Of a DNA stretch of 64,000 bases, positions 13,773-31,143 are shown piece by piece. The notes beneath the pieces are model-generated. The model ran no database searches, was not told where the DNA came from, and saw only the letters and a program-made list of their open reading frames with translations. Each line of letters begins with the position of its first letter. Position 1 is the first letter of the stretch. The translations under genes were made by a program, and so were the position numbers. This stretch comes from Salarchaeum japonicum. GTDB taxonomy: Archaea; Halobacteriota; Halobacteria; Halobacteriales; Halobacteriaceae. The DNA lies in the NCBI RefSeq assembly GCF_020614395.1, contig NZ_CP085324.1, forward strand, positions 310,001 through 374,000, read 5' to 3'.

Positions 13773-14814
13773 CCTGCGTCGGCTCCGGCGCGTCTCCGTC
13801 GGACGTGATGGGGTCGGACTCGTCCTCGGTGAACCCCGCGGACTCCTCCATCCGCCGCTTCGCGTCCGGGTCGAACTGCGCCTCGATCTCCTGGTAGCGC
13901 GGCACGAGCGACATCTCGTGGTGACTCTCCGTCTCGTGACCGAGGTAGCGGTCTTCGAGGTCGAACTGCGCCTGCTCGTCGTTCTCCGCGATGTTCTTCA
14001 TGTCCTCGTACACCGCGTGCGCGCCGGAGTGGAGGGCGTACAGCGTGATGAACTGGTACGTGTAGCCGAGGTCGCCCAGTTCCTGGAACGTCAGCGGGTC
14101 GTCCTGCTCGCTCCACGCGAACGACGACGAGTAGTTGAACGCGAGGTCGAGGTCGGGATGGGTCTCGTGGATGGTCTCCGCGTAGTTGACCGCGTCCTCC
14201 CGGCTCGGGTCGGGCATCTCGGGCCAGACGAGGTCAGCGCCGGCGTCCGCGAAGAGGCGGCCGCGTTCGAGATGGTCTTCCCAGTCGCCGTTCGCGGAGC
14301 CGTAGGAGTCGATGCGGGCGATGATGACCGTGTCCTCGGACTGCTTCGCGTCCACGGCGGCTTCGATGCGCGCTCGGGCGTCCTCCTGGGAGACGACTTG
14401 CTTGCCGGCGATGTGGCCGCAGCGCTTCGGCGTGGTCTGGTCTTCGATGTGGATGGCGGCGACGCCGGCCTTCTCGTACTCCCGGACCGCGCGCCGGACG
14501 TTGTGGACGCCGCCGTAGCCGGTGTCGGCGTCCGCGACGACGGGGAGGTCGGTGGCGTCGACGATTCGCTTCGCGTTCTCCACCATCTCGGTCATGGAGA
14601 CCATTTCGAGGTCGGGGAAGCCGAACTGGCCGAGGACGGTGGAGTACCCGCTCATGTAGGCGGCGTCCAACCCGGCGCGCTCGGCGAGCCGGGCGTCGAG
14701 CGCGTGGTACAGGCCGGGCGCGAAGACGTAGTCCTGGTTCTCCAGCTTGTCGCGGAACTCGCGGCCGGCCGGGTTGTCGATGTCGCGGTACGTGTAGTCC
14801 TTGTAGTCACTCAT
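13765..14814 (-). CDS. aceA: Isocitrate lyase
   Basis: 349 residues. It cleaves isocitrate to succinate and glyoxylate and opens the glyoxylate bypass for growth on acetate. The catalytic signature KRCGH is at 130-134. The Mg/substrate region [18 protein letters not shown] (about 92-109) and IHIEDQTTP (121-129) agree with the family. It is shorter than bacterial AceA (about 430), as usual in haloarchaea and close to the PEP mutase/methylisocitrate lyase size, but KRCGH and adjacency to aceB support isocitrate lyase. A 41-aa gene immediately upstream overlaps its start, and a large palindrome lies further upstream. Confidence 0.95.
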
Positions 14815-22697: not shown

Positions 22698-23162
22698 TCA
22701 GTCCTCCGGTTCGAAGTCCACGACGAGCACTGGCTTGCGGGTGGAGCGGAGCACGCGCTCGGTGACGCTCCCGAGGAGCGCGCGGCGCACGCCGCTACGG
22801 CCGTGACTCCCGATGACGACGAGGTCGATGTCCTCGTCGTCCGCGTAGTCCGCGACCACCGCGTGCGGCTGGCCGACCCGCACGGCCTCCACCACGCTGA
22901 CGCCGCGGTCGGTCGCGGCGTCCGCGACCGCGCCCGTGGCGGCGTTCGCCTTCTCCTCCACTTCCTCCATCTCGTCCAGGTGGCCCTGGCGGATGCGGTC
23001 TACTTGCTCCGCGCCGAGGCCGAAGCTCACGGCGTCCACGTCCACGACGTAGAGCGCGTGCACGTCGGCGTCGTACTTCTCCGCGAGGTCGACGGCGTGC
23101 TCGATGGCGACCGCCGAGACGTCGCTCCCGTCGGTCGGGACGAGGATGCGGTCGTACATCAC
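22698..23162 (-). CDS. Universal stress protein (UspA family)
   Basis: 154 residues. Seen: N-terminal YDRILVPTDGSDVS and the ATP-binding motif GSHGRSGVRRALLGSVTERV (Gx2GxGx9GS/T type), so this is probably an ATP-binding Usp. Its ATG overlaps the symporter stop (ATGA type), so it is translated with the transporter. Usp proteins next to SSS transporters are common in haloarchaea and may sense energy state at the transporter. Two adjacent Met codons (MMYDR) leave the exact start ambiguous by one residue. Confidence 0.92.
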   Translation of the reverse strand: MMYDRILVPTDGSDVSAVAIEHAVDLAEKYDADVHALYVVDVDAVSFGLGAEQVDRIRQGHLDEMEEVEEKANAATGAVADAATDRGVSVVEAVRVGQPHAVVADYADDEDIDLVVIGSHGRSGVRRALLGSVTERVLRSTRKPVLVVDFEPED

Positions 23163-24847
23163 GCGTCACCTCCCTGGACGTCCTCGCCGCCGTCCGTGGA
23201 CACGACTTCCTCCGCGGACTCCATGCGGTCCATCGGTTCGGGGCTGTGACACTGGCGGACGAGCCGCTTCGTCTCCATGTCGGGTTCCTCGGTCGCGAGC
23301 GACACCGCGATGGTGACGATGAACACGACCGGAACCGCGACGAGCGCGGAGCCGATTGCGGGCACCCACTGCGCGAGCGTCGGCGAGATGGTGCTGTCGA
23401 GCGACGAGACGTACGTCGGCAGCACTTCGTTTATCATCGGGATTATCCAGATGATGAGGCCGGTGGTCATGCCGGCGAGCGCGCCCTGCCGGTTCGTGTT
23501 CTCCCACCAGAGACCGAGGAAGAACATCGGGAACAGCACCGCGCCGGCGAGCGAGAACGCGTACGACACGAGCGCTGCGATGGGCGCGGCGGGGTTGAGT
23601 GCCGCGAGCGTCGTGATGACGCCGAGCGCGACGATGCTCAGCCGACCGACGAGCACCTGCTGGCGCTGGGTCGCGTCGGGGTTGATGATGTTCGCGTAGA
23701 TGTCGTGCGAGATGGCGGACGACCCGGCGATGAACAGGCCGGCGATCGTCGCGATGGCGGCCGCGATGCCGCCCGCGGCGACGAGGCCGACGAACCACGT
23801 CGGGAGGTTCGACAGCTGCGCGGCGAGCACGACGATGACGTCACCGGCCGCGCTCGTCATCCCGGGGTCGCCGTACACGTCACCGATCTGGTTCGCGTAG
23901 AGGTCGGTGCCGAACGCGGCGAACGCGGGCGAACTCAGGTAGAGGAGGCAGATGAAGCCGAGCCCCCACACCGTCGACCAGCGCGCGGTGCGCTCGGAGT
24001 CGACCGTGTAGAACCGCACGAGGACGTGCGGGAGGCCGCAGGTTCCGACCACGAGCGAGAACGCGGTCGCGATCCAGAGGTAGTAGCTCTGGTGGACGAA
24101 CGGCTCGCTGAACTCGCTGCTCAGCACGCTGAACATCTCCCCGTACTCGATGTGCGGGAGGACGGTGGAGTAGCCGTTCGCGTATCCGACGACGTAGAGG
24201 CCGGCGAGGAACGCGACGATGAGGATGACGTACTGGACGGCCATGTTCTTCGTCGCGCCCATCATGCCGGAGATGCTGAGGTAGCCGACCGTTATCGCCA
24301 TCATGAAGACGACCATCGACTGGTAGCCGGTGAGACCGAGGATGCCGAGGTCGCCGAAGATGTAGAGGCCGACGAGGCCCATGCCGCGCGCCTGCCCGAT
24401 GGCGTACACGAACCCGATGAGGAACGTGGTGACGGCGGCGATTGCGCGCGCGGTGTCGGAGTTGTAGCGGTCGCCGACGAAGTCGGGCGCGGTGTACTTC
24501 CCGAACCGCCGCATCTGGGCGGCCATGAAGATGAGGAGGATGAAGTACCCGGTTGACCAGCCGACGACGAACGCGAGTCCGTAGAACCCGCTCAGTGCGA
24601 TGAGCGCGGCCATGCCGAGGTAGGACGCGGCGCTCATCCAGTTCGCGCCGATGGCCATGCCGTTCTCGACGTTCCCGATGGAGCGTCCGGCGACCCACAT
24701 GCCCTCGGTGTCGGCGACCTTGAACACGAAGCCGATGACGAGGAACAGCGCGAGCATCGCCAGCACGAGGATGGCGGGGATGAGTTTGAACGAGACGTTC
24801 AGTCCCTCGGGGAGCAGGCCGCTCTGCATCGGGAGGAGCAGACTCAT
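23159..24847 (-). CDS. actP: Sodium:solute symporter, acetate permease-like
   Basis: 562 residues with about thirteen predicted membrane helices, in the SSS family. The sequences EGMWVAGRSIGNVENGMAIG, ANWMSAASYLGMAA and SGSS-like core regions match the ActP/VC_2705 branch that carries short organic acids such as acetate with sodium. The C-terminal 50 residues are soluble. Its start overlaps the DUF4212 stop, a pairing typical of this branch, and it lies downstream of acs, which supports acetate as substrate. Other short-chain acids remain possible. Confidence 0.87.
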   Translation of the reverse strand: MSLLLPMQSGLLPEGLNVSFKLIPAILVLAMLALFLVIGFVFKVADTEGMWVAGRSIGNVENGMAIGANWMSAASYLGMAALIALSGFYGLAFVVGWSTGYFILLIFMAAQMRRFGKYTAPDFVGDRYNSDTARAIAAVTTFLIGFVYAIGQARGMGLVGLYIFGDLGILGLTGYQSMVVFMMAITVGYLSISGMMGATKNMAVQYVILIVAFLAGLYVVGYANGYSTVLPHIEYGEMFSVLSSEFSEPFVHQSYYLWIATAFSLVVGTCGLPHVLVRFYTVDSERTARWSTVWGLGFICLLYLSSPAFAAFGTDLYANQIGDVYGDPGMTSAAGDVIVVLAAQLSNLPTWFVGLVAAGGIAAAIATIAGLFIAGSSAISHDIYANIINPDATQRQQVLVGRLSIVALGVITTLAALNPAAPIAALVSYAFSLAGAVLFPMFFLGLWWENTNRQGALAGMTTGLIIWIIPMINEVLPTYVSSLDSTISPTLAQWVPAIGSALVAVPVVFIVTIAVSLATEEPDMETKRLVRQCHSPEPMDRMESAEEVVSTDGGEDVQGGDA

Positions 24848-25233
24848 CAGGCGTCACCTCCGTGACTGATGCCGTACTTCTCGTCGAGCGCGTCCCGTCG
24901 GCGGGCGTACCAGACCGAGAGGATGAGCGCGCCCGCGGGCGCGCCGATGGCGACGAGGAAGTAGTGCAGCGGGAAGCCGCCCGGGATGGTCATCGTCATG
25001 GTGTCGGGGGCGAGCGCGGTCGCGGTCACCGGCCCGAACACGAGCACCGCCCAGATGATGAAGCCCGTCCAGATGAGCCGGAGGTGGTCGCGCATGAACT
25101 CCGTGCTCGGTTTGAGGAGGTTCACTTCCTCCTCCAGGTAGTTCGTCTCCCGGTGTCGTTGCGCGGCGGTCGCGGTGCCGCCGTCGGGAGCGGTTCGTTC
25201 GCCGTCCGAATCGTGCCTGTCATTTTCTGTCAT
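24847..25233 (-). CDS. DUF4212 small subunit of the sodium:solute symporter
   Basis: 128 residues. The N-terminal 50 residues are polar and acidic, followed by two membrane helices (about 53-73 and 87-110) and the conserved-looking ending VWYARRRDALDEKYG. The DUF4212 family is the small partner encoded just upstream of ActP-type symporters, as here (overlap of stop and start). The gene follows acs by 42 bases on the same strand, so activation and import may be co-transcribed. Confidence 0.88.
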   Translation of the reverse strand: MTENDRHDSDGERTAPDGGTATAAQRHRETNYLEEEVNLLKPSTEFMRDHLRLIWTGFIIWAVLVFGPVTATALAPDTMTMTIPGGFPLHYFLVAIGAPAGALILSVWYARRRDALDEKYGISHGGDA

Positions 25234-25275: not shown

Positions 25276-27270
25276 TTAGTTGCGTGCCTGGTCGCGGATT
25301 TCGGAGACGATTTCGGGGTTGCGGAGCGTCGAGGTGTCACCGAGTTCCTCGTCGTTCGCCACGTCCTCCAGGAGGCGGCGCATAATCTTCCCGGAGCGCG
25401 TCTTCGGGAGTTCGGGCGTGAACACGACCTGCTCGGGGCGCGCGATGGGGCCGATGGCGTCCTCGATGCCCTCGACGATGCGCGCGCGCAGGTCGTCGTC
25501 GCCCTCGTAGCCGTCCTCGGTGATGACGTAGGCGTACACGGCCTCGCCCTTGATGTCGTGGTCGCCGCCGACGACGGCGGCTTCCGCGACGCCCTCGACG
25601 CCGACGATGGCGGACTCTATCTCCATCGTCCCCAGCCGGTGGCCGGAGACGTTGATGACGTCGTCCACCCGCCCGAGCACGGTGATGTAGCCGTCGTCGT
25701 CTATCTTCGCGCCGTCCTCGGGGAAGTACACCCAGTCGTCGGGGTCGTCGCTGTCGGTGTCCGAGTACTCGGCCCAGTACTCGTCGATGTAGCGCTCGTC
25801 GTTCTTGTAGAGCGTGCGCAACATCCCCGGCCACGGCTTCTGCACCGTGAGGTAGCCGGCGCGGCCGGGTTCTATCTGGTCGCCCGCGTTGTCCACGATT
25901 TCGACGTCGAGACCGGGGAGAGGCGGGCCGGCGCTCCCGGGTTTCATCTTCTTCACGCCGGGAAGCGTCGTTATCATCATCCCGCCCGTCTCGGTCTGCC
26001 ACCACGTGTCCACGATGGGGCACTCCTCGTTCCCGATGTGCTTGTAGTACCACTTCCACGCGCGCGGATTGATGGGTTCGCCGACCGTTCCCAGCAGGCG
26101 GAGGCTGGAGAGGTCGTGCTGGTCGGGGAACTCGGAGCCCCACTTCATGAACGACCGAATCGCGGTCGGCGCGGTGTACAGCTGGGTCGCCTCGTACTCC
26201 TCGATTATCTCCCAGAGCCGGTCGCGCTCGGGGTAGTCGGGCGTCCCCTCGTACATCATCGTCGTCGTTCCGAGCGCGAGCGGGCCGTACACGATGTAGG
26301 AGTGCCCGGTGATCCAGCCGATGTCGGCGCTGCAGAAGTAGGTGTCCTCGGGCTTGATGTCGAGGACTGCCTGACTCGTCCACGCCGCCCACGAGAGATA
26401 CCCGCCGGTCGTGTGTTTCACACCCTTCGGCTCCCCGGTTGTGCCCGAGGTGTACATCAGGAAGAGCATGTCCTCGGCGTCGCGCTCGACCGGTTCGACC
26501 TCCGCGCCCTCGTTGGCGGCGACCACGTCGTCGTAGTCGCGCTGGGTGTCGGTGAGGTCGTGGCCGAAGCCGTCGTCGCCGAGCCGGTCGACGACCACCA
26601 CGTCGGAGACCTCGTGTTCGACGCCGCTCAAGCCCTCGTTCGCCTTGTCGAGGTGGTCGAGCGGGTCGCCGCGGCGGTAGTAGCCGTCGCAGGTCACGAG
26701 GTACTCGGAGTCCGCGGCGTTCATCCGGGTGGCGAGCGCGTCGGCGCTGAACCCGGCGAACACGACGGAGTGCGGCGCGCCGATGCGCGCGCAGGCGAGC
26801 ATCGCGATGGGGAGTTCGGGAATCATCGGCATGTAGAGGGTGACGATGTCGCCCTCGCCGACGCCCATCTCCCGGAGGCCCGCGGCGAACTCGTTCACCT
26901 CGCGGTGGAGTTCCGCGTACGTGTACGTCCGGTCGGCCTCGTCGGTGGGTTCCCCGACCCACTCGATGGCGGCCTCGTCCCCGCGCTCGTCGAGGTGGCG
27001 GTCGAGGCAGTTCGCCGACGCGTTCAGACTGCCGTTCGTGAACCACTCGAAGAAGGGCGGGTTCGAGTCGTCGAGTACCTGGTCGTAGTCCGAGTCCCAG
27101 TCGAGGAGGTCTGCCGCCCCCTCCCAGCACTCGGGCCAATTCTCCTCGAACTCGTCGTATACGGACGCGTCGGTGACGTTCGCCTGCTCGACGAACGACT
27201 CCGGCGGCTCGAACTCCGCCTGCTCTTCGAGACGCGCTTCCAGTTCGACGTCCGCGTCGTCGCCTGACAT
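25276..27270 (-). CDS. acs: Acetyl-CoA synthetase (AMP-forming)
   Basis: 664 residues, normal for Acs. It makes acetyl-CoA from acetate, ATP and CoA. Signatures are the AMP-binding P-loop MYTSGTTGEPKGVKHTTGG, the acetate-pocket block VDTWWQTETGG, GRVDDVINVSGHRLG near the hinge, and the catalytic lysine in PKTRSGKIMRR, which is the usual site of regulatory acetylation. The ATG at 27270 is preceded by a strong TATA (minus strand) at 27296-27304. It lies between the HTH-10 regulator upstream and the DUF4212/SSS transporter downstream. Confidence 0.96.
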   Translation of the reverse strand: MSGDDADVELEARLEEQAEFEPPESFVEQANVTDASVYDEFEENWPECWEGAADLLDWDSDYDQVLDDSNPPFFEWFTNGSLNASANCLDRHLDERGDEAAIEWVGEPTDEADRTYTYAELHREVNEFAAGLREMGVGEGDIVTLYMPMIPELPIAMLACARIGAPHSVVFAGFSADALATRMNAADSEYLVTCDGYYRRGDPLDHLDKANEGLSGVEHEVSDVVVVDRLGDDGFGHDLTDTQRDYDDVVAANEGAEVEPVERDAEDMLFLMYTSGTTGEPKGVKHTTGGYLSWAAWTSQAVLDIKPEDTYFCSADIGWITGHSYIVYGPLALGTTTMMYEGTPDYPERDRLWEIIEEYEATQLYTAPTAIRSFMKWGSEFPDQHDLSSLRLLGTVGEPINPRAWKWYYKHIGNEECPIVDTWWQTETGGMMITTLPGVKKMKPGSAGPPLPGLDVEIVDNAGDQIEPGRAGYLTVQKPWPGMLRTLYKNDERYIDEYWAEYSDTDSDDPDDWVYFPEDGAKIDDDGYITVLGRVDDVINVSGHRLGTMEIESAIVGVEGVAEAAVVGGDHDIKGEAVYAYVITEDGYEGDDDLRARIVEGIEDAIGPIARPEQVVFTPELPKTRSGKIMRRLLEDVANDEELGDTSTLRNPEIVSEIRDQARN

Positions 27271-27354
27271 GGTGTAGCGTAATAGTTGATAATAGGGATA
27301 AAAAGCACCCTCGCTAATTATCGTAATTCTTCACGCGGAAGCGAACCGCTCACC
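27271..27354 (-). promoter_or_regulatory. acs promoter with inverted repeat around the TATA box
   Basis: On the minus strand TTTTTATCC (27304-27296) is a TATA box 26 bases before the ATG, so the transcript is probably leaderless. GATAATAG (27288-27295) and CTAATTATC (27314-27322) form an imperfect inverted repeat flanking it. The left arm contains TTGATAAT (27286-27293), also found in the aceA palindrome. Confidence 0.6.
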
Positions 27355-29031
27355 CTACGCGTCGTCCGTGAACGCGGCCGTCAGCAACTTTTGCTGGGCC
27401 TTCCGCAGGTGGTTGTGGAGCGTCGGCGCGGAGACGTCCATCGCGTCCGCCAACTCCTCCGCCGTGCTCCCGCGCGGCCACTCGAAGTACCCGCCGAAGT
27501 ACGCCGCTCGCAGGGTCGCGCGCTGTTTCTCGGTCAGGTCTTCCTGGAGGGTCTGCCGGAGGTCGGTCGTCTGCGGGCGGCGCTCCGTCTCGCGTTTCGC
27601 GCGGAGTTCCACGCCGTCGAAGCGGTCGGTGACGGCCTCCACGACGCCCCGCACGTCCACGGCCTTCGGGAAGACGGCGGTGAGGGCCGCGTCGCCCTCC
27701 GCGACCGAGAGCGACTCCACCGCGCCGCCGCGGTCGACCACGACCCCGGTCGGCGTCCCCCCGGAGACGACGCACTCGAGGTGCGCGCGGTCGCCGTGGT
27801 CGCGGATGAGGCGCACGTCCCGCACCCGGTCGTCCTCGCCCGCGTGCGCGAGGATGTCCTCCACGGACGCCCCGCTCGCGGTGACGAAACACAGGAGGTC
27901 GCCGTCCTCCACGGGAACCAGTCCTTCGAGGTCGAACGCGCAGTCGAGTTCGCGGGACGCCGCGACGAAGAACGACCCGCGGGTGACGCCGAAGGAGAGT
28001 TCGACGCCGGTGTCCGCGACGAGCAGGCGCTTTCGCTCGACCGCCGCGGTCGTCCAGCCGATTCGCCGGCCCGCGTCCACGAGGAACTCCCGCAGTCCCT
28101 CGGTGTCCGCGTCCTCCGTGACCGCGCAGAGGAGGCCGTGGGGCGTGCCGTTCGACCGTATCGCGCTCACCGCGACCGACGCGTTCGGCCCCCAGCGCTC
28201 CCCGTCGAGCGCGCGCTGTGCGAACGCGCCCTGCTCGTCCACGCCGTGGCCGTCCAGCAGGCCGGTCTGTCGCACGCTCTCCCGGACGGTCGCGCGCGCC
28301 GTCTCCGCGTTCACGCCCGCGCACTCCCGGAGGTCGCCGTGCTCGTCGCACGTCCAGACCGCGCGTACGGACGGCGCGAGCGCCTCGCAGGCCGCGCGGT
28401 CGACCGCGTCCCGGGTGGACACGTCGGCGAGCGCCGCGCCGAGCCGCCGCGACGCGCCCGCGAACGGCACCGCCGTCTCCGACTCTCCCGAGTTCTCGTC
28501 GGTCATCGCGGCCGCTATCTCGCGGTCGGTCGGCGTCTCCGTGTAGGGTTCGAGGCTGTCGAGGCTCGCCCACCCGCCGGTCGCGCGCACCACTCGGGGG
28601 TCGACGCCGTCGTCGAGGTGTCGGCGCGCGAACCCCGCGCGGAGGTCGCGCGCGGCCACGTCCGCGAGCCGGTCGTCGTCCGTCGAGGCCCGGGTCGCCA
28701 CCTCGGAGACGAGCATCTGGAGCCGGCGCGGCGTCACGTCGAACACGCGCTCGTCGGTTCCGACGTTGTTCGCGTTCACGTACCGCTCGAACTCCCGCGC
28801 CACGTCCTCGGGGACGTACGCGCGCCGGCCGTCGTTCGGCACGCGCAGGAACGCGTGCGTCCGCCCGTCGAACGACCGCTCCGTCAGGTGGGCGGGGTTC
28901 ACGTCCGCGAGTTCGCCCGACCGCAGGCCGACGCGCCCGCAGAGCGCGACGACGAGCGCCTCCCGGTACGTCCGCGCCGCCCGCGCGACCCGCTCGTACT
29001 CCGCGACCGTGAGCGCCCCCTCGTCCGCCAT
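27355..29031 (-). CDS. Integrase-like domain fused to a bacterio-opsin-activator (HTH-10) regulator
   Basis: 558 residues in three parts. Residues 1 to about 170 resemble the catalytic domain of a tyrosine recombinase: GRVGLRSGEL carries the first Arg, RDLRAGFARRHLDDGVD the second Arg, TGGWAS sits where GHxS is usual, and LEPY the Tyr. The usual active-site His residues are replaced, so DNA cutting is doubtful and DNA binding more likely. The middle (about 200-330) is GAF-like. The C-terminal HTH-10 domain (about 495-550, LTEKQRATLRAAYFGGYFEW, then STAEELADAMDVS) is the Bat-type DNA binder. Its place between two acs genes on the same strand suggests it controls acetate use. Confidence 0.85.
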   Translation of the reverse strand: MADEGALTVAEYERVARAARTYREALVVALCGRVGLRSGELADVNPAHLTERSFDGRTHAFLRVPNDGRRAYVPEDVAREFERYVNANNVGTDERVFDVTPRRLQMLVSEVATRASTDDDRLADVAARDLRAGFARRHLDDGVDPRVVRATGGWASLDSLEPYTETPTDREIAAAMTDENSGESETAVPFAGASRRLGAALADVSTRDAVDRAACEALAPSVRAVWTCDEHGDLRECAGVNAETARATVRESVRQTGLLDGHGVDEQGAFAQRALDGERWGPNASVAVSAIRSNGTPHGLLCAVTEDADTEGLREFLVDAGRRIGWTTAAVERKRLLVADTGVELSFGVTRGSFFVAASRELDCAFDLEGLVPVEDGDLLCFVTASGASVEDILAHAGEDDRVRDVRLIRDHGDRAHLECVVSGGTPTGVVVDRGGAVESLSVAEGDAALTAVFPKAVDVRGVVEAVTDRFDGVELRAKRETERRPQTTDLRQTLQEDLTEKQRATLRAAYFGGYFEWPRGSTAEELADAMDVSAPTLHNHLRKAQQKLLTAAFTDDA

Positions 29032-29139: not shown

Positions 29140-31050
29140 CTACGATGATTCCGAAACGTCTTCGACGATGGATTCGAGTTCGCCGACGATTTCGGGGTTG
29201 CGGAGCGCGGACGTGTCCTCGATGTCGTCGCCGTTCGTGATGCGTTCGAGGTAGCGCCGCATCAGTTTCCCCGAGCGCGTCTTCGGGAGGTCGGGCGTGA
29301 ACACGACCACGTCCGGCGCGGCGAACCGGCCGATGGCGTCCGCGACCGCGTCCCGCACGCGCTCGCGGAGCGGGTCGGTCGCGCTCACGTTCTTCCGCGG
29401 GCTGACGTACGCGTACAGCGACGTACCCGCCTCCCCCGACCCGCCGACGACGGCGGCTTCCGCGACGCCCTCGACGCCGACGATGGCGGACTCCACCTCG
29501 GCGGTTCCGAGGCGGCGGCCCGCGACGTTCAGGAGGTCGCCGCGCCGCCCCAGCAGTCGGATGTAGCCCGCGTCGTCCACGGTCGCGGTGTCGCCCGTGT
29601 CGTACGCCCAGCCCTCACGGGTCGCGTTCTCGCGGAGGGAGTCCGCCATCCCCGGCCACGGCCGCGTCACCGCGAGCATCCCGGACTCGCCCGGGTCGAC
29701 GGGGTCGCCGCGCGCGCCCACCACGTCCGCCTCGACGCCCGGAATCGGCGGGCCCGCCGCGCCCGGCCGCATCTCGTCCACGCCCGGGAGCGTCGAGAGG
29801 AGGATGCCGCCCGTCTCGGTCTGCCACCACGTGTCCACGATGGGGCACTCCCCGCGGCCGATGTGCTCGTAGTACCACCACCACGCCGTCTCGTCGATGG
29901 GTTCGCCGACCGTTCCCAGCAGGCGGAGGCTGGAGAGGTCGTGCTTCTCCGGGTACTCCGCGCCCCACTTCATGAAGGAGTGGATGGCGGTCGGCGCGGT
30001 GTAGAACACGTCCACGGCGTTGCGTTCCACGATCTCCCAGATGCGGTTGCGCTCGGGGTGGTCGGGCGCGCCCTCGTACATCACGGTGGTCGCGCCGAGC
30101 GCGAGCGGGCCGTACACGATGTAGGAGTGCCCGGTGATCCAGCCCACGTCCGCGCTACACCAGTGCGTGTCCTCGTGGGAGAGGTCGAGGACGGTCTCGC
30201 TCGTCCACGCGACGTGCGCGAGGTAGCCCCCGGTGGCGTGGCGAACCGCCGTCGGCTCTCCCGTGGTTCCCGACGTGTGGATGACGAACAGGGCGTCCTC
30301 GGCGTCCCGGGGAACCGGCTCCACGTCCGCGCCCGCGTGCTCGTCCACGAGGCGGTCGTACGCGTGGTCGCCGTCGAGCGCGCGGCCGTTCCCGAGGCGG
30401 TCGACGACGACCTGCTGGACGGACTGCGGCACGGCGAGCGCGGCGTTGTCCGCCTTGCTCTTCAGGTCGTACGCAGTGCCCCTGCGGTAGTAGCCGTCGC
30501 AGGTCACCAGCAGGGAGGAGCCGGTCTGTTCGAGGCGGGTCGCCAGCGCGTCCTTCGAGAACCCCGCGAACACGACGGAGTGCACCGCGCCGATGCGCGC
30601 GCAGGCCAGCATCGCGATGGGGAGTTCCGGCACCATCGGGAGGTAGAGCGTCACCACGTCGTCCTCTTCGACCCCCAGCTCGCGGAGCGCCGCCGCGAAC
30701 GCGTTCACCTCCCGGTGGAGATCCTGGTACGTGTACGTCCGCGTCTCCCCGCGCTTTCCCTCCCACTTGATGGCCGCGCGGTTCTTCCGGCCCGCCTCGA
30801 CGTGGCGGTCCACGCAGTTCGCCGCGGCGTTCAACCGCCCGCCCGCGAACCAGGTCGCGCGCTCGCCGTCGGCGTCCAGTACGTCGTCGTACGCCGACTC
30901 CCAGTCGAGCAGGTCGCCCGCGGCCGCCCAGCAGTCGGGCCAGTCCGCGAACTCGCCGCGCAACGCGTCCGTCGCGTTCGCGTCCGCCGCGAATCCCTCG
31001 GGCGGCGCGACGCTCGCCGGGCGCTCCCGCCCGGGTCGTCCATCGTCCAT
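29140..31050 (-). CDS. Second acyl-CoA synthetase of the Acs family
   Basis: 636 residues, clearly a paralogue of the acs gene two places downstream. It keeps the P-loop (HTSGTTGEPTAVRHATGG, with Lys replaced by Thr after EP), VDTWWQTETGG and the acetylatable lysine in PKTRSGKLMRR. It differs at the hinge: GRRGDLLNVAGRRLG instead of GRVDDVINVSGHRLG, and lacks a segment of about 25 residues before it. These changes suggest another substrate (for example propionate) or altered kinetics. ATG 31050 is in frame; an ATG seven bases later is not. A TATA-like CTTATGGG lies about 30 bases upstream. It is divergent from the MBL gene at 31144. Confidence 0.9.
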   Translation of the reverse strand: MDDGRPGRERPASVAPPEGFAADANATDALRGEFADWPDCWAAAGDLLDWESAYDDVLDADGERATWFAGGRLNAAANCVDRHVEAGRKNRAAIKWEGKRGETRTYTYQDLHREVNAFAAALRELGVEEDDVVTLYLPMVPELPIAMLACARIGAVHSVVFAGFSKDALATRLEQTGSSLLVTCDGYYRRGTAYDLKSKADNAALAVPQSVQQVVVDRLGNGRALDGDHAYDRLVDEHAGADVEPVPRDAEDALFVIHTSGTTGEPTAVRHATGGYLAHVAWTSETVLDLSHEDTHWCSADVGWITGHSYIVYGPLALGATTVMYEGAPDHPERNRIWEIVERNAVDVFYTAPTAIHSFMKWGAEYPEKHDLSSLRLLGTVGEPIDETAWWWYYEHIGRGECPIVDTWWQTETGGILLSTLPGVDEMRPGAAGPPIPGVEADVVGARGDPVDPGESGMLAVTRPWPGMADSLRENATREGWAYDTGDTATVDDAGYIRLLGRRGDLLNVAGRRLGTAEVESAIVGVEGVAEAAVVGGSGEAGTSLYAYVSPRKNVSATDPLRERVRDAVADAIGRFAAPDVVVFTPDLPKTRSGKLMRRYLERITNGDDIEDTSALRNPEIVGELESIVEDVSESS

Positions 31051-31143
31051 CGTCTCACACACGGGTTCGGGGCGAGCGCCCATAAGAGTCGCCCCGTCGC
31101 CGGGGCACCAACGCTTTTGCGTGCGCGCGACCGCGCTTCGAGT

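Follow-up and report, generated by a model that had tools for sequence, protein, structure and literature searches.

A Bat-type regulator with a plasmid-type recombinase domain is a candidate activator of acetate uptake and activation in haloarchaea

In the 64,000-nt stretch of Salarchaeum japonicum DNA analysed here (the window), two acetyl-CoA synthetase genes flank a gene whose 558-aa product, hereafter REG, is a regulator of the Bat type that begins with a tyrosine-recombinase-like domain. REG is probably an activator dedicated to one pathway, acetate uptake and activation, and one that carries a domesticated recombinase domain of plasmid type. Judged from gene order and promoter sequence, it very likely regulates the acsB-DUF4212-ssf-usp operon, and it quite probably does so as an activator. 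The initial annotation had called the gene a strong candidate for the acetate regulator, a proposal that gains weight from recurrent synteny and from a cis-element that tracks the gene. REG thereby offers a concrete candidate regulator of haloarchaeal acetate use, for which we found no named one, together with a concrete DNA element, and this candidate can be tested in Haloferax volcanii, where the acetate induction of the operon has already been published. No description of REG or its architecture appeared among the papers listed by searches of a literature collection with few subscription journals. The features of the locus, by position in the window, are:

22698–23162, minus strand: universal stress protein, USP (PF00582)
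23159–24847, minus strand: SSF symporter (PF00474; gene order as in H. volcanii, PMC7746861, seen in part)
24847–25233, minus strand: DUF4212 small protein (PF13937)
25276–27270, minus strand: acsB, AMP-forming acetyl-CoA synthetase (PF00501, PF13193, PF16177)
27298–27327, minus strand: TT-N4-AYANYTAG-N8-TATA, acsB promoter (position matrix, 27.7 bits)
27355–29031, minus strand: REG, 558-aa Bat-type regulator with N-terminal tyrosine-recombinase-like domain (ORF, translation, family searches)
27382–27537, minus strand: HTH_10 domain of REG, residues 499–550 (PF04967, 72.4 bits; cut-off 23.1)
27562–28014, minus strand: BAT domain of REG, residues 340–490 (PF15915, 137.5 bits; curated cut-off 25.8)
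28027–28464, minus strand: GAF-like region of REG, about residues 190–335, bounds approximate (GAF matches at the same place in relatives)
28525–29016, minus strand: tyrosine-recombinase catalytic-domain homologue of REG, residues 6–169 (NF040815 and PF00589, both below cut-off; PDB 4a8e; profile against the PDB; Foldseek; residue table)
29140–31062, minus strand: acsA, second AMP-forming acetyl-CoA synthetase, start approximate (PF00501, PF13193, PF16177)

The REG open reading frame fits its coordinates exactly and starts with ATG. Its BAT and HTH_10 domains both exceed the Pfam cut-offs in all ten relatives scanned (10/10 each), and the HTH_10 domain lies at the C-terminus, where the initial annotation had put it. 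A GAF-like region had also been proposed; Pfam finds GAF above cut-off in six of the ten relatives and PAS in two, but neither GAF nor PAS in the window protein, and the BAT domain that follows had gone unnamed. The N-terminal domain matches PF00589 with 24.1 bits, under the cut-off of 27.1 that is exceeded in five of the ten relatives, and the NCBIfam XerA model NF040815 with 36.9 bits, far under its equivalog cut-off of 220, and residues 6–169 match PDB 4a8e with E = 2e-6. The domain order was seen in 11 of 11 members by Pfam scan, with an integrase match below cut-off in six of the 11. Bat and other BAT-HTH_10 regulators share BAT (PF15915) and a C-terminal HTH_10 with REG, and a GAF-type region with those REG relatives in which Pfam detects one. 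Bat itself, as described in the accessible part of PMC3184054, has GAF and PAS domains in addition to its C-terminal HTH, activates bop, and is encoded near its target, as REG is near the acs operon. REG differs from Bat in its N-terminal recombinase domain, in its acetate cluster in place of bop, and perhaps in its element, TT-N4-AYANYTAG. The plasmid-borne full-length REG members seen are annotated solely as "bacterio-opsin activator domain-containing protein", a name that hides both the candidate acetate role and the recombinase domestication.

All genes of the window cluster are encoded on the minus strand in the order acs-REG-acs-DUF4212-SSF-USP, and, judged by its family and the order of the genes, the symporter is probably related to the acetate transporter ActP. 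We compared the window with 103 fetched loci (100 as 20-kb stretches and three others), giving 104 rows of which 103 are distinct. These loci were drawn from genomes with matches, and the synteny counts below are silent on genomes without REG. An acs gene is found within 1 kb upstream of REG in 102 of the 104 loci, downstream in 101, and on both sides in 99; SSF (93/104), DUF4212 (92/104), and USP (86/104) are found downstream. A position between two acs genes, already reported in the initial annotation together with the suggestion to survey the neighbours of this architecture, is thus common to 99/104 loci, and Pfam assigns both neighbours in the window to the AMP-forming acetyl-CoA synthetases. 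Those loci that carry kinship labels span ten haloarchaeal families (f1–f4 and f6–f11), all within the order to which the window belongs. The five exceptions comprise two loci without acsB (L078, L127), one with no acsA in reach (L125), and two with wider gaps (L149, L160). In L149, about 2.1 kb lie between REG and acsB, and the promoter element described below is found next to acsB instead of REG. The cluster order of the window recurs on annotated plasmids of Haloferax lucentense and H. larsenii. Among 391 sampled genomes of the class, the full REG protein is detected in 182 at E ≤ 1e-55 and the N domain in 295 at E ≤ 1e-8, the latter count possibly including stand-alone relatives; both searches score the best few candidates of each genome. 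In one genome (G319:C1:1716020-1719162), the N and C parts of REG occupy two frames with a distance of about 1.5 kb between them, which may reflect an interrupting insertion.

Aligned stretches upstream of acsB share TT-N4-AYANYTAG, followed after 8 nt by a TATA box; relative to the acsB ATG, the element lies at about −56 to −44 and the TATA box at about −35 to −28. When both strands of the 64-kb window are scanned, the acsB-promoter site alone reaches at least 6 bits. In the 600 nt that follow the REG stop codon (2700 nt in L149), the position matrix detects the element with at least 10 bits in 102/104 REG loci, a count to be read with the facts that the loci are related, and so not independent, and that the loci scored also served to derive the element. 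A held-out test softens the latter point: matrices trained on loci with REG proteins less than 50% identical recover the element in 98/104, against 0/104 for shuffles and 1/104 for the opposite strand. Of the two loci under 10 bits in the scanned stretch, L130 reaches 8.7 bits and L079 has its site further on, directly before acsB. The element is absent at 8 bits or more upstream of REG (0/103) and occurs upstream of acsA in 4/103. Both strands of the 4.26 Mb of REG loci contain 17 other matches of at least 10 bits. Six of these (L078, L108, L127, L133, L159, and L165) belong to the promoter region already described, downstream of REG but beyond the stretch scanned first, and in L078 and L127, which lack acsB, the site is located between REG and DUF4212-ssf. 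Four more (L093, L105, L110, and L111, neighbours in the BAT + HTH tree) sit before acsA, with this copy about 2.1 kb before REG and scoring 13.8–21.7 bits. The H. lucentense and H. larsenii plasmids also carry the element (22.5 and 20.5 bits, respectively); they were outside the training set, which may include close relatives.

Across the whole S. japonicum genome, the exact element pattern matches once, and with one mismatch allowed it matches three times, against five for the reversed control. Through this site, which marks only one promoter in S. japonicum, REG does not act as a general acetate/glyoxylate regulator. The initial annotation had also expected aceA among the targets. The gene meant is probably the one with a KRCGH-type isocitrate lyase/PEP-mutase signature near 14427 on the minus strand, about 13 kb from REG and not adjacent to it, and the window scan found no copy of the element near this gene. 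Measured by the element, with its one site of at least 6 bits in 64 kb and its one exact genomic match, aceA gains no support as a target, and other second targets in this genome were rejected on the same grounds.

Operons without REG nearby offer a comparison. DUF4212 is detected at E ≤ 1e-10 in 260 of the 391 genomes, and we fetched stretches of 18.5–20 kb from 20 such genomes with no or weak REG matches. REG is missing from 19 of the 20 stretches, and these 19 come from four families; the remaining one (G009) has REG, and the element at 23.9 bits. An N-domain match is absent from the matches listed for 15 of the 19 genomes and lies elsewhere in the other four (G068, G114, G283, and G286), and the N-domain profile matched none of the ORFs of the 19 stretches. 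In the 750 nt upstream of the operon, the element reaches 10 bits in 0/19. Over the whole stretches, a match of at least 9 bits is present in five of the 19, four of them far from the operon; in L197, a 14.3-bit site with CAG for TAG is located close to where acs probably starts, beyond the 750 nt scanned, and may be a decayed element. The element thus comes and goes with REG. For an earlier tally (98/102 vs. 1/19), Fisher's test gives p = 1e-16, a value that overstates the association because the loci are related. Seven of the 19 loci encode REG-C-terminal-like proteins nearby. Five of them (L187–L191, genus g13) share a GAF-BAT-HTH-like protein of 557–584 aa, encoded 2.7–4.4 kb upstream of acs and receiver-like at its start as read from the sequence, which suggests regulator replacement, and two more have other such proteins, short ones of 222 aa. 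These data bear on the idea that REG acts elsewhere and that the element serves a different factor, either an unlinked regulator or a variant of TBP/TFB. The element does include the TATA box, and the possible decayed site of L197 stands in an operon without REG; however, the presence of the element in nearly all REG loci as opposed to none of the 19 scanned upstream stretches, and its absence from the operon in the seven loci with REG-C-terminal-like proteins nearby, make ownership by another factor improbable, and regulation by REG remains the preferred reading.

The link to acetate comes from other haloarchaea. In H. volcanii, the operon acs7-HVO_A0155-ssf-uspA28 gives a transcript of 4.6 kb on acetate, with no transcript on glucose or casamino acids, and its symporter is an acetate transporter, according to the accessible part of PMC7746861. 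As acs7 is HVO_A0156 and acs8 is HVO_A0158, HVO_A0157 should be REG; this locus tag has no occurrence in the accessible text of PMC7746861. H. mediterranei raises HFX_5129 3.5-fold and HFX_5131 3.1-fold on acetate, according to a paper whose main text, as far as accessible, does not contain the word "regulator" (PMC11784441). Dedicated control of acs is also known from the CrbS/R system of Pseudomonas and Vibrio, a bacterial two-component system whose proteins are unrelated to REG (PMC5715377, seen in part).

We propose that REG, encoded directly upstream of the acsB-DUF4212-ssf-usp operon, would switch it on. Its GAF/BAT part would probably sense an acetate-related or energy signal, and its HTH_10 end would bind at or beside TT-N4-AYANYTAG, immediately before the TATA box, a contact from which the basal machinery would be recruited. 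The position of the element directly upstream of the TATA box fits an activator. A repressor that a signal releases from the operon is unlikely by comparison: a regulator encoded beside its target can act either way, and the lack of a detectable operon transcript on glucose in H. volcanii (PMC7746861, accessible part) would suit repression, but the element stops 8 nt short of the TATA box and covers neither this box nor the start, and Bat itself is described as an activator in the accessible part of PMC3184054.

The N-terminus of REG is homologous to the catalytic domain of tyrosine recombinases. In a search of the PDB, a profile built from 40 of 56 diverse REG N domains (A2) matched the archaeal XerA structures 4a8e (E = 1.6e-18) and 5hxy (E = 1.9e-11). 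A Foldseek search with a model of the N domain returned 39 PDB matches at E ≤ 0.001, all of them tyrosine recombinases (XerA, Cre and variants, lambda Int, integron and Tn1549 integrases, and XerH), with XerA and Cre as the top matches. The N-domain model is modest (pLDDT 64, pTM 0.60, pLDDT below 50 from residue 155 on) and was used solely for fold confirmation; the AlphaFold model of full-length REG is too weak for use (pLDDT 57, pTM 0.32). XerA consists of a core-binding domain and a catalytic domain with a full active site. Archaeal XerA and the REG N domain share the fold and are homologous in sequence, but REG has the catalytic domain alone and lacks both the separate core-binding domain and the full active site.

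The residues of the active site speak strongly against REG being an active site-specific recombinase whose inversions or excisions would switch the acetate genes. The XerA/Cre fold is present, and window REG retains R37, R131, W154, and Y163, which agrees with the initial statement that both arginines and the tyrosine of integrases are kept. Over the 104 members (103 distinct, as locus L118 repeats L002), Arg-I (the R37 position) is found in 91 and Arg-II (R131) in all 104, and position III, Trp in window REG, is occupied by Trp in 91, Tyr in ten, and Phe in three. The box-II His, in contrast, is absent from 101/104: the position is taken by Arg in window REG (R128), and in the family by His in three members, Arg in 51, Ser in 28, and Lys in one. 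The Lys of the β2-β3 hairpin is missing from window REG and from 102/104 members in total, counting any Lys in the hairpin columns; since the two members that have it (L001 and L104) both lack the box-II His, the full catalytic set occurs in 0/104. The nucleophile Tyr (Y163), present in window REG and in 73/104 members, is replaced in 31 (Leu 14, Phe seven, His five, others five), and its state changes 11 times, by gain or loss, on a tree of the BAT and HTH parts only, at least ten times by well supported branches. Gene order is nearly constant, with acs on both sides in 99/104 loci, and the 2.5 kb around the gene, scanned in the window only, contain imperfect repeats of 14–40 nt and no exact inverted pair of at least 14 nt. 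An active recombinase or invertible switch was rejected on the residue losses, the Tyr changes, and the repeat scan, and we regard it as extremely improbable. The recombinase domain looks dead, and cleavage activity would have been lost with these residues; where catalysis is concerned, the absence of a full set from every member speaks for the original notion of a re-used integrase fold.

The closest matches to the REG N domain outside the family are stand-alone haloarchaeal plasmid proteins of about 200 aa, mostly annotated as "site-specific integrase" (e.g. VNG_RS12805 on pNRC100, and others on pHSAL2 and pNG200). We examined 12 of the 27 non-REG records listed, along with L229 (genome G021) and L013, L233, and L234 from other genomes. 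The 12 plasmid proteins are 171–203 aa long, are about 31–41% identical to the N domain, and have GGW and EPY motifs, and all 16 stand-alone relatives examined combine a complete set of R, K, H, R, W, and Y with GGW. The initial annotation had reported that the active-site His residues were lost, with GGW in place of GHS at position III. This stands for box II, where R128 replaces His, but not for position III, and a loss of the position-III residue was rejected, since the close relatives pair GGW with the full set. As GGW is common to REG and its stand-alone relatives, the losses of REG are Lys and His, the hairpin Lys being additional to those noted initially. Cre and Flp likewise have Trp at position III. 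The XerA-like protein of the same genome (L175) is more distant, with His-II present and GGW absent. Many haloarchaeal plasmids carry stand-alone integrases of about 200 aa with a complete catalytic set and no core-binding domain; one of these is encoded on pNRC100 (L235, 2399–3004).

In a 40-row tree that included 23 of the 104 REG N domains, these 23 form one clade (99/100, bootstrap rough), and the deeper branching is poorly supported. Profile searches of whole genomes yielded many more stand-alone relatives. Outside the class, among 294 sampled genomes of the phylum, matches at E ≤ 1e-15 were restricted to two genomes of one genus, with frames of 275–280 aa. Two PHROG integrase profiles match the REG N domain (E = 2.6e-11 and 8.3e-10), yet no viral relative of the domain was confirmed in viral contigs or found in phage records, and a viral source was rejected, plasmid relatives having been found instead. 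The stand-alone integrases keep all six catalytic residues and have no regulator part, in contrast to REG, which has lost Lys and His. The family thus presents a case of domestication in which active-looking plasmid relatives exist alongside a widespread family without Lys and His and repeatedly without Tyr, which despite these losses retains its arginines and its genomic place.

The N domain would have been captured as a whole catalytic domain, once as far as the tree shows, from kin of the approximately 200-aa plasmid recombinases, and may have been retained after the loss of strand cleavage as a DNA-holding or dimerising module. We lean slightly towards contact of this domain with DNA. Besides R131, also R102 and R103 are invariant (104/104), R69 and M106 are present in 103/104, R23 in 102/104, and Q105 in 100/104, and the motif RR-(L/V/I)-QM is nearly fixed. 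The invariant arginines fit contacts with the DNA backbone without proving them, and may be structural. Across the family, Lys and Arg are more frequent in the N domain (13.2%) than in the other three parts of the protein, and its median charge, −4.9 per 100 aa, is the least negative. The difference in charge is modest, and window REG departs from it, with −2.7 for the GAF part against −3.4 for the N domain. Somewhat less probable, and still a serious contender, is a dimerisation or ligand module that stays off the DNA and leaves HTH_10 alone to read the element. Recombinase domains also make protein-protein contacts, and co-variation between element and protein gives the N domain no special place, with the 100 top pairs spread over all domains (BAT 35, GAF 24, N 23, HTH 18); the conserved arginines weigh on the other side.

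DNA contact by the N domain could take a bolder form, which we consider doubtful: the gutted recombinase domain itself might read TT-N4-AYANYTAG, much as recombinases read half-sites, with HTH_10 holding a second block or contacting TBP/TFB. If this were true, a recombinase catalytic domain would have become the part that gives a transcription factor its specificity, and would have been maintained in at least ten haloarchaeal families. A related re-use is known from the plant ALOG regulators, which contain the DNA-binding part of tyrosine recombinases, and thus a different recombinase domain from the catalytic one re-used in REG (PMC3537659, seen in part). A review of recruited mobile elements covers recombinases that rearrange DNA for gene regulation, and a dead recombinase domain within a transcription factor was not seen in its accessible part (PMC8987985). 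Finally, chain 14 of PDB entry 9i5v, a 401-residue protein named RaiA (ribosome-associated inhibitor), has a Xer-like domain at residues 135–280, possibly another re-use of the recombinase fold or else a naming slip.
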